A stretch of 64,000 bases of DNA from Pseudomonadota bacterium. GTDB lineage: Bacteria; Pseudomonadota; Alphaproteobacteria; UBA828. Below are positions 846 through 33,257 of the stretch, piece by piece. Under the pieces are notes generated by a model. That model searched no databases, had not been told where the DNA came from, and worked only from the letters and a program-made list of their open reading frames with translations. The stretch is from positions 1 through 64,000 of the forward strand of contig JAQBTG010000016.1 of the NCBI GenBank assembly GCA_027624955.1. Reading direction: 5' to 3'. Positions within the stretch are counted from its first letter, which is position 1; each line of letters begins with the position of its first letter. The position numbers and the translations under genes were made by a program.

Positions 846-1475
846 CTAGTGCCGGCGAATGTGATTTATTTTTAGGATGACGCCACCCGGCTCCACTTTG
901 CTCGGTACCTGTCGCACATCAAATTGCCAGCTTTCACGCGCTGCTTTTAGTTCATCCTCTGCCTGCATGCCCTTTGAAAACATACAATATGTTCTGTCAT
1001 ACACGATAGGAAAAACAATATCTAGTAGTTTTGCGAGAGGAGAAACCGCCCTTGCGGTGACAATCGCCGCTACTGGCAAGGCGGCGAGTGAAGCCGAGTC
1101 ATCTCCTAGCCGAATATTGTGGATTGTCACCTGGCAACCGGTGATGCGCGCCGCCTCGCGCAGAAAAACGCATTTCTTGGCGCCAGCTTCTATCAAGTGA
1201 ATGTCTGCTAGCCCCATGATGGCCAGTACCATGCCCGGGAAACCGGCGCCGCTGCCAACATCTATCAGCGCGCCTTCATAGGCTGGTATCACGTCGCGCA
1301 ATTGCGCCGAATCGGCGATGTGGCGGCGCCAGACATCATTTAGTGAATCTTTGGAAACCAAGTTGACGCGCCGGTTCCAGTGCCTCAGCAACTGTACAAA
1401 TTGCTCCAGGCGCGCGCATGTTTCACGTGAAACATCATAATCTCGGACAAAATCTTCTACGCCGTAGTGGGCCAT
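846..1475 (-). CDS. rsmG: RsmG, 16S rRNA (guanine527-N7) methyltransferase
   Basis: RsmG (GidB) transfers a methyl group from S-adenosylmethionine to N7 of G527 of 16S rRNA. The 209-residue product has normal family length. The SAM-binding motif DVGSGAGFPG is at residues 72-81, and the N-terminal WNRRVNLVS helix region is typical. Residues VSRET near position 15 are encoded by a perfect parS site, a coincidence of coding and centromere function often seen in this gene. It sits between mnmG and parA on the same strand, the usual order next to par loci. The frame is open upstream to a stop inside the second parS site, and the single ATG at 1475 is the natural start; its ribosome-binding site is weak. 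Confidence 0.96.
   Translation of the reverse strand: MAHYGVEDFVRDYDVSRETCARLEQFVQLLRHWNRRVNLVSKDSLNDVWRRHIADSAQLRDVIPAYEGALIDVGSGAGFPGMVLAIMGLADIHLIEAGAKKCVFLREAARITGCQVTIHNIRLGDDSASLAALPVAAIVTARAVSPLAKLLDIVFPIVYDRTYCMFSKGMQAEDELKAARESWQFDVRQVPSKVEPGGVILKINHIRRH
1419..1434. other. parS centromere site 1, inside rsmG
   Basis: The 16-bp palindrome TGTTTCACGTGAAACA matches the bacterial parS consensus at every position. It lies in the 5' part of rsmG and encodes the VSRET residues. ParB would load and spread from here. Confidence 0.95.
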
Positions 1476-1498
1476 GAATTCATCCGCGGTTTCTCTAA

Positions 1499-1514
1499 TG
1501 TTTCACGTGAAACA
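1499..1514. other. parS centromere site 2, between mnmG and rsmG
   Basis: A second perfect TGTTTCACGTGAAACA palindrome, exactly 80 bp from the first, in the 90-base gap between the mnmG stop and the rsmG start. Two close sites next to parA fit a primary ParB loading zone. Confidence 0.95.
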
Positions 1515-1565
1515 GTGGAACTAATTGAATCAGCCGGTCTCCGCACTTACCTAGGAGGTCATGCC

Positions 1566-3452
1566 TCACCGAGGGTTAAGAGAGCTTTGGTCCAGCCGTT
1601 TTACGTGGCGCAAAAGTGCGGTGATTGCTGCGGGGGTAACCCCGGCAATGCGCGATGCAGCGCCGAGCGTTGGCGGTAAACCCGTCTGCAATTTATTGCA
1701 CGCCTCTGTCGATAATCCGCCAATCCGGCCATAATCAAGACCAATGGGCAGAAGCAACTCTTCGTCCCTCTTGAACGCATCTATATCGGCCGATTGACGT
1801 TCCAAATAACGGGTATAGCCGGATTCGATCTTGATCTGAGCAAACATCTTACTGTCGACCTTACCCAATTGCGGCCAAATCCTCGCCAGCTGTTCTTGAT
1901 CTATTTCCGGGAAAGCCAACAGTTCTAGGGCACTTCGAAGGACCCCATCGTGCTTCACTTTAACGCCGTATTCCGACAATTTATTGGGACTGGCATCGAG
2001 GCTTTTCATCTGGCTCAACGCTCGATCCTGAGCCCGCATTTTGTCTTCAAACGCCGTTTGCCGCCCTCTACCCACACACCCCAAATCTATAGCCTTTGCG
2101 GTCAAACGTTGGTCAGCATTATCCGGCCGCAATTTGATGCGATACTCAGAGCGTGACGTGAACATGCGATAGGGTTCTGCGGCCCCCTGGGTGGTCAGGT
2201 CATCGATCATCACACCAATAAAAGCATCCGCCCTGTTCAAAATGAATGGTTTGTCGGAACCACCAGCGGCCAGCGCGGCATTCAAACCGGCAATGATGCC
2301 TTGCGCCGCCGCTTCTTCATATCCTGTGGTACCATTAATCTGGCCGGCAAGATAAAGACCGCCGATGCGCTTCGTCTGGAGGCTCGGCCACAGCTCTCTA
2401 GGGTCAATAAAATCATACTCAATGGCATAACCCGGCCGAACCATCTGAACTTTCTCGAGCCCTGGGATGGTATGCAGCATCGCCAATTGCACATCTTCCG
2501 GCAGAGAGGTGGATATGCCATTGGGATAGATGGTGTGATCCTCGAGACCTTCCGGTTCAAGAAAAATTTGATGTGAATTTCGATCGGGAAAACGGGTAAT
2601 TTTATCTTCGATGGACGGACAATATCGCGGGCCAACACCAGTTATATTACCTGAGTAAAGCGCTGATTTCAGTAAATTTGCACGAATGAGATCATGGCTC
2701 GCGATGCCTGTTCCAGTGATGAAACAATCAATCTGCCGCTGCGAAACCGTATCATTTAGGTAGGAGAAGGGCTGTGGTGGATTGTCACCAGGTTGCCGCT
2801 GCAAACCAGCAAAATCTATCGTTCGACCATCCAATCTGGGCGGCGTGCCGGTTTTCAGGCGCCCTAGTCTAAAGCCCCGATCCTGCAACGTATCTGCAAG
2901 ACCTGTTTCAGCAGGATCGCCCACCCGACCGGCAGAAATCCGTTTCTCGCCAATGTGAATAACGCCTTTGAGAAAGGTGCCCGTGGTAAGCACCACACGC
3001 GATGCTAGGATCGTTTCGCCGCGCGCGGTCACAACACCGGTAATCCGCGCGTCGCGGTCAACCACGATGTCCTCGACCGCCTCGGCCCTCAGGGTGAGAT
3101 GTGCCTGCTGCTTCAACTCCTGCTGCATCGCGGCGCGATAAAGTGCCCGATCCTGCTGCGCGCGCGGACCGTGCACCGCGGGCCCCTTGCTGCGGTTGAG
3201 AACGCGAAATTGGATACCTGCTTGATCCGCGACGCGGCCCATCAGACCGTCCAAGGCATCGACTTCGCGAACCAAGGTCCCCTTGGCCAAACCACCGATG
3301 GCCGGGTTGCACGACATCTCCCCAATAGTCTGTAGCTTGTGCGTCAAGAGCAGCGTCTCGGCGCCGAGGCGCGCCGCAGCGCCAGCGGCCTCACAGCCGG
3401 CATGACCCCCGCCGATAACTATAACGTCATATTTTGATGGTGTAGTCGTCAT
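1566..3452 (-). CDS. mnmG: MnmG, FAD-dependent tRNA uridine-34 modification enzyme
   Basis: MnmG (GidA) works with MnmE to install the carboxymethylaminomethyl group on wobble uridine-34 of certain tRNAs, using FAD, NADH and methylene-THF. The 628-residue product is full length. The Rossmann motif [10 protein letters not shown] lies at residues 14-23, CNPAIGG at about 48, and the family signatures [11 protein letters not shown] and [16 protein letters not shown] follow. It starts at ATG 3452, 72 bases after the mnmE stop, and is followed by rsmG; this is the classic mnmE-mnmG-rsmG-parA order. The 72-base gap holds TATATATAG-like AT-rich sequence that could be a promoter, but I cannot place one firmly. 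Confidence 0.97.
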
Positions 3453-3524
3453 GTTTTAAAGAGATGTTCCCTACATTTGGTGTGATATCGCACCTAGCGT
3501 CTATATATAGTGCATGAGGCGGGA

Positions 3525-4865
3525 TTACTTCCCGATGCAAAATTCTTTGAAAATGATATCCAGGACCTGCTCAATATCGCTACGTCCGGTTATCCGCCCC
3601 AAACAATCGGCTGCCAGGCGCAGTTCTTCCGCAGCAAGCTCCTCTCCCGCATCGATATCATATCTGTGCAACGATTCCAGACATTTTTCCAACGCATGGC
3701 GATGTCTCGACCGGGTCAGTACCGGAGAATCTGACGGCAGATAGCGCGCTTCAAGAAAATCCTTGATGCGCTCGAGCAATTCATCGAGGCCCTCGCCCGT
3801 CTTGCAGGAGACCTTAAGCAGCGGTTTGCCGCCGAAACGCGCCGCCGGTGCACTTTCAGCCAATAAGTCACATTTGTTCAACACCGCCAGCGCCTCGTTA
3901 TCGACCAACGCCTCAACCTCTTCGTCGCTATTCGGCCAGTGCGCGCCGTCAAGCAGCACAATCTTGAGATCGGCCTCACCGGCACGGGCGTGAGCGCGCC
4001 GCATGCCCTCGGCCTCTACGTCGCTCGTTGCGACACGCAGACCTGCCGTGTCGGCCACGGTTAGCGGCCAGCCGTCAAGATCCATACGTACTTCGATGAC
4101 GTCGCGCGTTGTGCCTTCTTCAGCTGCTACAATAGCCGCGTCTCTTCCGGCTAATCGATTGAGAAGACTAGATTTCCCAGCGTTTACCGGGCCCAGTATT
4201 GCGACCTGGACGCCCTCCCTCAAACGCTCCCCCCGGCCACCATCTCGCAGATGGGCGGAAATTTCGGTGCTGATGGCGTGTATCTCCGGCGCAACCGGAT
4301 CAAGCACCCCGTCCGGCAACTCCTGATCCGAGAAATCTATGGTTGATTCAATTAATGCACGAATTCTAAGCAACCGCCGGCGCCAATCCTCGTACAGTTC
4401 CCCAAGCGCACCGCCACTCTGCCGCAACGCCTGGCGGCGCTGAATTTCGGTTTCTGCATCAACCAGATCGGCGATACCTTCGGCGGCGGTAAGATCGAGC
4501 TTGCCGTGCTCGAAGGCGCGGCGCGAGAATTCACCGGCCTCGGCCGGGCGCAACTCTTTCATCGCGCTCAGCGCAGATAGCAGCGCAGCGATAACGGCAC
4601 GTCCACCATGAACATGAAACTCCGCCACGTCCTCGCCGGTGTAGCTCGCCGGGCCGGGAAACCACAGCACCAGTGCCCGATCGATCTCCGTGTGATTGTG
4701 CGGGTCGGCGAGACGGCGCAGCTCGGCCTGGCGTGGCGCCGGCGGCTCGCCACCCGTGAGGCGGCAGACGGTCTCGCGTGCCGCTCCACCAGACAGCCGC
4801 ACGATCGCCACCGCAGATTTTCCCGGTGCACTGGCCAGCGCGAATATGGTGTCGTCAAAGCGCAT
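3525..4865 (-). CDS. mnmE: MnmE, tRNA modification GTPase
   Basis: MnmE (TrmE) is the GTPase and tetrahydrofolate-binding partner of MnmG in wobble-uridine modification. The 446-residue protein shows the N-terminal THF domain, a G1 loop GPVNAGKSS at residues 225-233, the GTTRDVIE switch, a DTAG motif and NKCD. It ends in the invariant CIGK tetrapeptide, whose Cys is functionally important in the family. It starts at ATG 4865. Upstream, 93 bases separate it from the stop of the [2Fe-2S] protein gene, which lies on the same strand, so read-through from that pair is possible. Confidence 0.97.
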   Translation of the reverse strand: MRFDDTIFALASAPGKSAVAIVRLSGGAARETVCRLTGGEPPAPRQAELRRLADPHNHTEIDRALVLWFPGPASYTGEDVAEFHVHGGRAVIAALLSALSAMKELRPAEAGEFSRRAFEHGKLDLTAAEGIADLVDAETEIQRRQALRQSGGALGELYEDWRRRLLRIRALIESTIDFSDQELPDGVLDPVAPEIHAISTEISAHLRDGGRGERLREGVQVAILGPVNAGKSSLLNRLAGRDAAIVAAEEGTTRDVIEVRMDLDGWPLTVADTAGLRVATSDVEAEGMRRAHARAGEADLKIVLLDGAHWPNSDEEVEALVDNEALAVLNKCDLLAESAPAARFGGKPLLKVSCKTGEGLDELLERIKDFLEARYLPSDSPVLTRSRHRHALEKCLESLHRYDIDAGEELAAEELRLAADCLGRITGRSDIEQVLDIIFKEFCIGK

Positions 4866-30936: not shown

Positions 30937-31761
30937 TTAATCCTCGCCGTCGATATGCTTGGCGTGAAGCTGCAGCACTGCGGCAGCCGTTTCCTCGATC
31001 GAGCGGTTTGTCACATCGATCACCGGCCATCCCGTCCTGGAGAACATTCGCCGCGCATGTTGCACCTCTTCGCGCACCGCCACGGGGTCAACATATTCCG
31101 TTTCCTCGTCCTGGCCGATCATGCGCAACCGGCTGCGGCGAATATCGACCAGCTGGTTGGCGCCGCAGGTGAGGCCGACGACCAGGGGGCGCTTGAGAAA
31201 CTCCAACTCCGGCGGCAGCGGGCAACCGGGCACGACGGGCACATTCGCCGTCTTGAATCCACGGTTAGCGAGATAAAAGCAAGTTGGCGTCTTGGACGAG
31301 CGCGACACGCCGACCAACACGATATCGGCACCCTCTAACGAACCGGTGGCCTGGCCATCGTCGTGCTGCAAAGTAAAGTTCATGGCGTCGATCCGGCCAA
31401 GATAATGCGCATCCATGACATGCTGGCTGCCCGGCAAGTTTTGGCTTTCAACGCCGAGGTACTGGCTCAAGGTCGCGATCACCATATCGAGCAAAGGGAT
31501 GCAGGGTATGTCGAGCTCGCGGCAGCCTTCCTGCAGCGCTTGGCGTAGTTCCTGATCGACCAGCGTAAACATAACCACGCCTGGATTTGCCGCAACGCTG
31601 GAAAGAACGCGCTTTAATTGATCTCTCGACCGCACCAGCGACCAAAGATGCTCGATCGCCTCGACATCGCTGAACTGTGCCACCGCGCCGCGCGCCACCG
31701 TGATAACGGTTTCGCCTGTGGCGTCGGAAACAAGGTGGAGATGAAAACTTTTAACGCTCAT
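30937..31761 (-). CDS. ppsR: PpsR/PDRP-type pyruvate,phosphate dikinase or PEP synthase regulatory protein (DUF299)
   Basis: A 274-residue bifunctional ADP-dependent kinase and phosphorylase family (DUF299) that inactivates and reactivates pyruvate,phosphate dikinase or PEP synthase by threonine phosphorylation. The N-terminus FHLHLVSDATGETVITVARG and the nucleotide loop GVSRSSKTPTCFYLANRG are the family signatures. This is the gene called RP001 in the conserved origin cluster of Caulobacter and Rickettsia. It is read away from the candidate origin, divergent from hemE. Confidence 0.94.
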   Translation of the reverse strand: MSVKSFHLHLVSDATGETVITVARGAVAQFSDVEAIEHLWSLVRSRDQLKRVLSSVAANPGVVMFTLVDQELRQALQEGCRELDIPCIPLLDMVIATLSQYLGVESQNLPGSQHVMDAHYLGRIDAMNFTLQHDDGQATGSLEGADIVLVGVSRSSKTPTCFYLANRGFKTANVPVVPGCPLPPELEFLKRPLVVGLTCGANQLVDIRRSRLRMIGQDEETEYVDPVAVREEVQHARRMFSRTGWPVIDVTNRSIEETAAAVLQLHAKHIDGED

Positions 31762-31780
31762 ATCCTATCCTTCACCGCCT

Positions 31781-31789
31781 TGTGTATAA
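31781..31789 (-). promoter_or_regulatory. DnaA box in candidate oriC
   Basis: TGTGTATAA on the plus strand reads TTATACACA on the minus strand, identical to the high-quality R2-type DnaA box of E. coli. It is 20 bases inside the gap from the ppsR start. Confidence 0.7.
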
Positions 31790-32031
31790 GCCTATCATGC
31801 ATTGTGAACAGCTTTGCAATCGGCCATCTGCCGGGATTCGTCAGCAAACGACGCGCCGCGATAGAGAGGACTTATGCTCAAAATCAGAAGTCCCTTCGTT
31901 TGCGGGGATATGTATTTTCGCGAGAAACTTATCCCACCAATCCCCGCTTTGTCCCGCGGCTAATTTTCGCATTAATTTTCGGTTGGTTGGAACATCACGC
32001 CCGTGATATCCCAAGGCCATCCACCGATGCG

Positions 32032-32050
32032 AAGAGGTGCCTGGCCTCTT
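32032..32050. repeat. Inverted repeat in candidate oriC
   Basis: AAGAGG at 32032-32037 pairs with CCTCTT at 32045-32050 (7-base loop). A second hairpin follows: GGGGAT 32071-32076 with ATCCCC 32086-32091, and a third arm pair, CCTACTAC 32104-32111 with GTAGTAGG 32149-32156. Confidence 0.7.
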
Positions 32051-32210
32051 GCCTGTTTGCCGGTGATGCTGGGGATAACAGCTTAATCCCCGGTTTCCCC
32101 CGTCCTACTACAACTACCACTACCTTTAATTTTTATAAGAATGTAAGAGTAGTAGGCATTCGCATATCTGTTCATAAGCCGATTCTCGTGACCATCTGGA
32201 TGATTCTTTC

Positions 32211-33257
32211 ATGAACTCCGAAGCTGGCATCAAGCCGTTGCTCTCGGCGCTGAGGGGCGTGCGTCAGACGCCCGTGCCGTTCTGGTATATGCGCCAGGCT
32301 GGGCGCTATTTGCCGGAATATCGCAAGCTGCGGGCCGAGGCCGGCGATTTCCTTGATCTCTGCTACTCGCCCGATCTTGCCGTTGAAGTCAGCCTGCAAC
32401 CGCTCCGGCGCTATGACATGGATGGCGTAATTTTATTCTCGGATATTCTAGTGGTGCCTGATGCGCTCGGAATCGGCCTCAGATATGTTGAGGGTGAGGG
32501 CCCAAAGCTTGATGCGCTGGACCAGCGCGATCCCCTGCCAGTTTATGAGCGTGAAAAATTTCTCGCCCATTTGTCTCCTGTGTTCGAAACGTTGAAGGGT
32601 ATCAATGCTCGTGCGCCCGCCACCGCTACCGTGATCGGTTTCGCCGGTGCGCCGTGGACGGTTGCCACCTATATGATCGAGGGCGGCAGCAGCCGGGATT
32701 TCGCCAAGACTAAAACCTGGGCGTTTCAGAATCCTGAGTCCTTTCAAAACCTGATTAACTTATTAGTCGATTCGACATCCGATTACCTGTTGGCCCAGAT
32801 CTATGCCGGCGCTGATGTTGTGCAAATTTTCGACAGCTGGGCAGGCGTGTTGCCGGAGATCGCCTTGCAGCGCTGGAGCCTGGCGCCAATTCTTGAAATC
32901 GTTAGGCGTGTCCGGCAGAAACATCCGGACGTGCCGGTTATCGCATTCCCGCGTGGCGCCGGCGTTTCTTATGCCGCCTATGCGGAGAGCGCGGATATCT
33001 CGGCCGTGTCACTGGATTCAACGATGCCGCTGTCCTGGGCCGCTGCGCACCTTCAGCCGCATGCGGTCGTGCAAGGTAACCTTGATCCCTTACTCCTCGT
33101 CTGTGGCGGCGCACCATTGTTCGAAGAGGCCGAGCGGATATTAACGACGCTTTCTGGTAAGCCGTTCGTGTTTAATCTTGGTCATGGCATCGTGCCGCAA
33201 ACGCCGCCCGAACATGTTGCCGCTTTGTCAGAATTCATTCGCGGTTGGAGAGCCTAG
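32211..33257 (+). CDS. hemE: HemE, uroporphyrinogen III decarboxylase
   Basis: Decarboxylates uroporphyrinogen III to coproporphyrinogen III in heme synthesis. The 348-residue protein carries the signature FWYMRQAGRYLPEYRKLR from about residue 24, IGFAGAPWTVATYMIEGG, and the HGIVPQTPPEHV end. It is the first gene right of the candidate origin and faces away from it. No strong ribosome-binding site is visible before ATG 32211. hemH follows three bases after its stop. Confidence 0.97.
   Translation: MNSEAGIKPLLSALRGVRQTPVPFWYMRQAGRYLPEYRKLRAEAGDFLDLCYSPDLAVEVSLQPLRRYDMDGVILFSDILVVPDALGIGLRYVEGEGPKLDALDQRDPLPVYEREKFLAHLSPVFETLKGINARAPATATVIGFAGAPWTVATYMIEGGSSRDFAKTKTWAFQNPESFQNLINLLVDSTSDYLLAQIYAGADVVQIFDSWAGVLPEIALQRWSLAPILEIVRRVRQKHPDVPVIAFPRGAGVSYAAYAESADISAVSLDSTMPLSWAAAHLQPHAVVQGNLDPLLLVCGGAPLFEEAERILTTLSGKPFVFNLGHGIVPQTPPEHVAALSEFIRGWRA

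Follow-up and report, generated by a model that had tools for sequence, protein, structure and literature searches.

Chromosomal replication origins lying between hemE and a COG1806 gene (ppsR/RP001) are known from Caulobacter crescentus and Rickettsia (Ioannidis et al. 2007, PMC1914354, citing Brassinga et al. 2002). The W-boxes of Caulobacter read TCCCCA (PMC4285127) and, according to a review, most other alphaproteobacterial origins show no CtrA sites (PMC4468827). In Bacillus subtilis and many other bacteria, strand opening depends on a basal unwinding system (BUS) that combines DnaA boxes with DnaA-trios (PMC8287927, PMC6669920, PMC10721633). The central A of the Bacillus trio hydrogen-bonds Asn187 of DnaA; C is tolerated at this position, while G or T weaken the origin both in vitro and in vivo (PMC10721633). 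Among the openly available papers searched, a single one names DnaA-trios and Alphaproteobacteria together, and its subject is epsilonproteobacterial origins.

We analysed the first 64,000 nucleotides (the window) of an 82,081-bp contig from an alphaproteobacterial draft genome of 3.58 Mb in 84 contigs. Its ppsR-hemE gap resembles the C. crescentus and Rickettsia origins in its flanking genes, its length of roughly 400 bp, its AT-rich stretch and its few DnaA boxes, and shares weak W-box-like TCCCC sites with Caulobacter (PMC4285127), but it has no CtrA sites. Like the B. subtilis BUS, it presents a box, a short spacer, a trinucleotide repeat on the same relative strand and an AT-rich element (PMC8287927, PMC6669920, PMC10721633). 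Unlike in B. subtilis, the proximal boxes are of the ATCCCC type, only half of the alphaproteobacterial trios have A at the centre (TNG instead of TAG), the DnaA of this genome carries Tyr in place of Asn187, and a second, facing module is a candidate in the window's genus. E. coli oriC likewise has two oppositely oriented DnaA assemblies within a single origin (PMC10316083), although its two clusters of boxes are both found to the same side of the unwinding element, whereas the two modules described here would flank a single AT core. The location of the origin is therefore of a known kind and in a known place. What is newly added is, on solid ground, a core module and a class-wide profile and, as hypotheses drawn from sequence comparison, a cause in DnaA for the relaxed trio alphabet and a facing module at the genus level.

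Location of the origin in the ppsR-hemE gap

The gap (31762-32210, 449 bp) separates ppsR (RP001/COG1806 homologue, 30937-31761, minus strand; NF003742, 326 bits) from the divergent hemE (32211-33257, plus strand; TIGR01464, 384 bits), the arrangement of hemE/ppsR-type alphaproteobacterial oriC. As the initial annotation had it, the genes on both sides point away from the gap, hemE opening at 32211 a rightward run with hemH, hemJ and rho, all on the plus strand. Cumulative GC skew is lowest at 32245, the gap/hemE boundary, in the window as well as in the whole 82-kb contig. When the 16 largest contigs, which make up 1.59 Mb or 44% of the genome, were compared, the strongest negative-to-positive reversal was found on this one (t = 5.6; at most 3.6 on the others), so that the skew check proposed in the initial annotation speaks for the gap at contig level. 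The best split in this reversal test is at 42 kb, as the skew hardly changes between 32 and 42 kb; skew thus resolves the turn to no better than about 10 kb, and it is at this resolution that the minimum coincides with the gap, as in origins of the hemE/ppsR type.

The genome has just two perfect parS sites (TGTTTCACGTGAAACA, 1419-1434 and 1499-1514); both lie on the same contig about 30 kb from the gap, beside rsmG-mnmG-mnmE. They are 80 bp apart and one overlaps the start of rsmG, the gene cluster spanning 846-4865; the sole other near-parS sequence in the genome (G000:C2:115510) has two mismatches. In a nearest-neighbour stability scan of the window, the minima for stretches of 30, 50 and 80 bp all start at 32105-32125.

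The DnaA boxes listed in the initial annotation are all present. They comprise TTATACACA (consensus TTATNCACA; 31781-31789, minus strand), which appears as TTAT[AG]CACA in six of six congeners, the weak box TTATGCTCA (31872-31880, plus strand; mostly TTATGCCCA in congeners), and TTATCCCCA (32070-32078, minus strand), with a W-box-like TCCCCA. We further detected a weak-box element, TTATCCCAC plus AATCCCCG (together TTATCCCACCAATCCCCG; 31929-31946, plus strand), which is conserved in congeners and whose AATCCCCG part recurs at 32085 as a direct repeat (D1). Allowing at most one mismatch and leaving position 5 free, the gap has four box-like sites where 0.12 would be expected per 450 bp, a count matched at only one other place in the 1.59 Mb scanned. 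Similarly, ATCCCC occurs four times against 0.09 expected. Given this excess and the TCCCCA form of Caulobacter W-boxes, the gap appears to be an origin made up of weak, W-like boxes and a single consensus box.

The repeats fared less uniformly. Three perfect 8-bp inverted repeats are indeed present (31844/31896, 31902/31940 and 32104/32149), the third (CCTACTAC/GTAGTAGG) corresponding to the outer ends of the two facing trio tracts described below. The two copies of TAATTTTCG that had been pointed out do exist, at 31961 and 31973, but the second belongs to a 12-bp tandem insertion (TAATTTTCGCAT-like duplication, 31961-31984), which lies within the origin and is particular to this genome among six congeners. 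As five congeners lack the insertion, the second copy is unlikely to matter, and we discarded the pair as a functional repeat.

For comparison with other genomes, ppsR-hemE gaps were gathered from 95 loci, and an aligned subset of 34, all from outside the window's GTDB family, provided a sequence profile, R1. Since these members were chosen by eye for a visible tract, R1 tests the window and other genomes and not its own members. At E values of up to 10, it matches the 3.58-Mb genome once, at 32080-32149 (E = 4.2e-8). Matches were obtained in 170 of 289 genomes of the class, nearly always one per genome, about 40% of class genomes having none under strict filters; hemE and/or ppsR lay within 1.5 kb at all 30 of the best class matches examined. 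In one complete genome of the same class (G027), the single match (3,605,263) falls at the minimum of the sampled cumulative skew, in the interval from the last negative tile (3,553,001) to the first positive tile (3,646,501); in a second complete genome, half of which was sampled, skew is too weak to be informative. Weak matches also occur in other classes of the phylum (G430:C15:27916-27976 and G433:C1:46621-46687, E about 1e-4).

Skew minimum, parS pair, four boxes, least stable DNA and a single genome-wide R1 match all uphold the central claim of the initial annotation, and the ppsR-hemE gap is, on these signals, almost certainly the chromosomal replication origin. It is very improbable that the origin lies elsewhere and the gap is a relic or a regulatory region: in other bacteria, origins do occur at dnaA-dnaN and at mnmE-mnmG-rsmG-parS (here 30 kb to the left), other low-stability stretches (967 and 3414) and a perfect DnaA box (2954) lie near parS, and contig C7 shows a skew V of its own, but that V is weaker, the skew is still falling from parS to 32 kb, only one box-like site is found at dnaA-dnaN and one near the C7 minimum, and R1 has no match outside the gap anywhere in the genome. 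Two other identities for the gap were rejected: a 198-amino-acid ORF (31618-32214) has no Pfam match and the relatives are set apart by indels, and an RNA element finds no match in Rfam.

No TTAA-N7-TTAA sequence occurs in the window, nor does one occur in the gap with one mismatch, and a Caulobacter-type CtrA-controlled origin was accordingly rejected. The absence, already remarked upon in the initial annotation, is real but unremarkable, as most other alphaproteobacterial origins likewise lack CtrA sites (PMC4468827). The genome does encode a GcrA homologue (G000:C4:47903-48277), so a Caulobacter-type cell-cycle circuit is partly present, though the origin shows no CtrA sites.

A box-trio module beside the AT-rich element

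Neither of the two modules considered from here on, at 32084-32124 and, facing it, at 32144-32177, figured in the initial annotation. The left one consists of the trio-proximal box TAATCCCCG (32084-32092, plus strand), the most conserved box in the alignment of Alphaproteobacteria, a 12-nt spacer and a tract of six ACN triplets, CTACTACAACTACCACTACC (32105-32124, plus strand), read on the opposite strand as the trios TAG-TGG-TAG-TTG-TAG-TAG. It is followed by an AT-rich unwinding element (32125-32154), the least stable 30 bp of the window. Among six congeners, mean identity to the window is 0.83 in the block 32082-32157 and drops to 0.53 on the left of the block and 0.49 on the right.

In order and strand, this layout of box, spacer of up to 16 nt, triplet repeat and AT element is that of a BUS. 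The published search rule asks for a box with at most two mismatches, a spacer of 0-16 nt and NAN trios with at least three consecutive central adenines, and the left module does not satisfy it: its trio centres are A, A, T, A, G and A, and TAATCCCCG, although a conserved alphaproteobacterial form, has three mismatches to TTATCCACA. We thus describe it as a variant that would work like a BUS.

The tract is not peculiar to the window. When the 16 XYN units were each scored on unselected gaps, ACN came far ahead, with an enrichment of about 100-fold; ACN runs scoring at least 4 occur in 24% of these gaps and in 0.2% of dinucleotide shuffles and, when the window's family is left out, in 14 gaps against 0.24 expected. 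The tract is frequent in Rhodospirillales-like lineages, but is missing from six Caulobacterales/Maricaulales and eleven Hyphomicrobiales gaps, so it is not obligatory for an origin of the hemE/ppsR type. This suggests that some lineages swapped the unwinding element yet kept the hemE-ppsR locus. Gaps lacking ACN runs include those of Phenylobacterium/Caulobacter (L101, L103, L105 and L108) and Methylobacterium (L081 and L090).

We consider it very probable that the gap is an origin equipped with a box-trio unwinding module, and we infer that DnaA binds the boxes of the gap and grips the tract as a single strand. DnaA would load on mostly weak sites, W-box-like and of the ATCCCC type except for the one consensus box at 31781. 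A DnaA filament would be anchored at TAATCCCCG (32084), the box closest to where the strands melt, and would cross the 12-nt spacer onto the triplet tract (32105-32124) and open the AT-rich element (32125-32154), where the helicase would be loaded. The parS sites 30 kb away would then serve to separate the copied origins.

Trio centres and the DnaA pocket

Across alphaproteobacterial gaps, the bottom-strand trios follow a 5'-TNG-3' pattern, with A at the centre in 65 cases, T in 43, G in 22 and C in none (on the hemE strand, a third ACN base of T, A, C or G, respectively). As Bacillus handles only A and C centres well, about half of the alphaproteobacterial trios have a centre that it would handle poorly. 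In the DnaA of this genome, Glu183 and Glu228 of the Bacillus protein are kept, while Val replaces both Ile190 and Ile193, Lys replaces Arg202 and Tyr replaces Asn187, the aligned pocket reading EKF-M-Y-H-F here and EKF-T-N-E-F in Bacillus. A second, short DnaA-like match in the genome (G000:C57:2087-2353) covers profile positions 347-436, in the DNA-binding domain, and at 70.6 bits remains below the cut-off.

The EKFMYxF codon pattern is found in 181 of the 289 class genomes and in none of 109 genomes from other classes of the phylum; a degenerate Asn/His/Asp pattern for the same position proved too unspecific and was dropped. R1 and EKFMYxF are associated (128 genomes with both, 42 with R1 only, 53 with the motif only and 66 with neither; odds ratio 3.8), but the genomes share ancestry, so the association may reflect descent only, and absence of the pattern does not mean that Asn is present. 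The explanation we favour for this tract, that alphaproteobacterial DnaA lost strict reading of the centre base through the change from Asn187 to Tyr, letting trios drift from TAG to TNG, is a hypothesis with slightly less than an even chance of being right. The pocket for the trio G would be retained, with Glu228 kept and Arg202 replaced by Lys. The TNG form may already have been noted elsewhere, for example among the predicted alphaproteobacterial sequences that the supplements of PMC8287927 probably contain.

The same base counts could be explained differently, if the origin is here but the recognised strand is the hemE-sense one, with its G-free HAC repeats, contacted either by DnaA in the other polarity or by the helicase-loading machinery. 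On that strand each triplet offers two fixed amino-bearing bases (A and C) and a third that is never G, while the bottom-strand centre, being A, T or G and never C, is the reverse of the Bacillus tolerance. This explanation is nonetheless unlikely, as box orientation, spacer length and the adjoining AT element fit the known box-trio layout, and the G-contacting residues of this DnaA are kept or conservatively changed.

A candidate facing module in the window's genus

To the right of the AT core, a trio tract of Bacillus type, with central A (TAA-GAG-TAG-TAG, TAAGAGTAGTAG; 32144-32155, plus strand), can be read from a weak DnaA box, TTATGAACA (TGTTCATAA; 32169-32177, minus strand), located 13 nt away. 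With this box, spacer and four trios, the right module conforms to the published BUS rule, which is permissive, and is the only strong match to it in the window (at least four trios and a good GAT score). Strong minus-strand matches were found in 4 of the 95 gaps and in none of the shuffles, all four belonging to the window's genus. The right arm also gives the second-best R1 match of the window, in mirror orientation, although a weak one (8.2 bits, E = 0.18). It is strongly conserved among congeners, with box and spacing largely kept. The two arms differ in the congeners, being of ACN type on the left and TAA-GAG-AAG-TAG on the right; each is conserved in its own form, so it is not a simple hairpin that has been preserved. 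A mirrored ACN tract throughout the class was rejected, opposite-strand ACN runs showing no excess over chance (2% of gaps and 4% of shuffles), and we thus propose only at the genus level, as a hypothesis, that one AT core is flanked by two box-trio modules pointing towards each other.

Alternatively, the right arm (32129-32177) could be a promoter, leader or regulator site of hemE, conserved for transcription. It sits 33-82 bp before the hemE start, and strong facing-module matches confined to one genus may represent a single event; against this stand the fit to the BUS rule, the kept box and spacing, and the fact that neither a sigma-70-like promoter nor an Rfam match was found in the arm. 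We give this explanation odds a little short of even, and regard a hemE promoter or leader as about as likely as one filament per strand as the meaning of the right arm. The fullest version of the facing-module proposal, in which Tyr permits relaxed 5'-TNG-3' reading and two facing modules each build one filament, on one strand each, and each admit one of the two helicases needed for bidirectional replication, would be quite unlikely to hold in its entirety.

R1 finds hemE/ppsR origins in draft genomes, usually as a single match. The published rule for origin unwinding is built around a central adenine that Bacillus Asn187 contacts, and the class-wide tract retains the outer bases but leaves that centre free. 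Such a tract, in a class with Tyr at the Asn187 position in many of its genomes, is a natural experiment on single-strand recognition by DnaA, and the idea of relaxed trios makes predictions that a simple strand-separation assay could check directly. If they do function, modules facing each other on the two strands would be relevant to the loading of a pair of opposed helicases.
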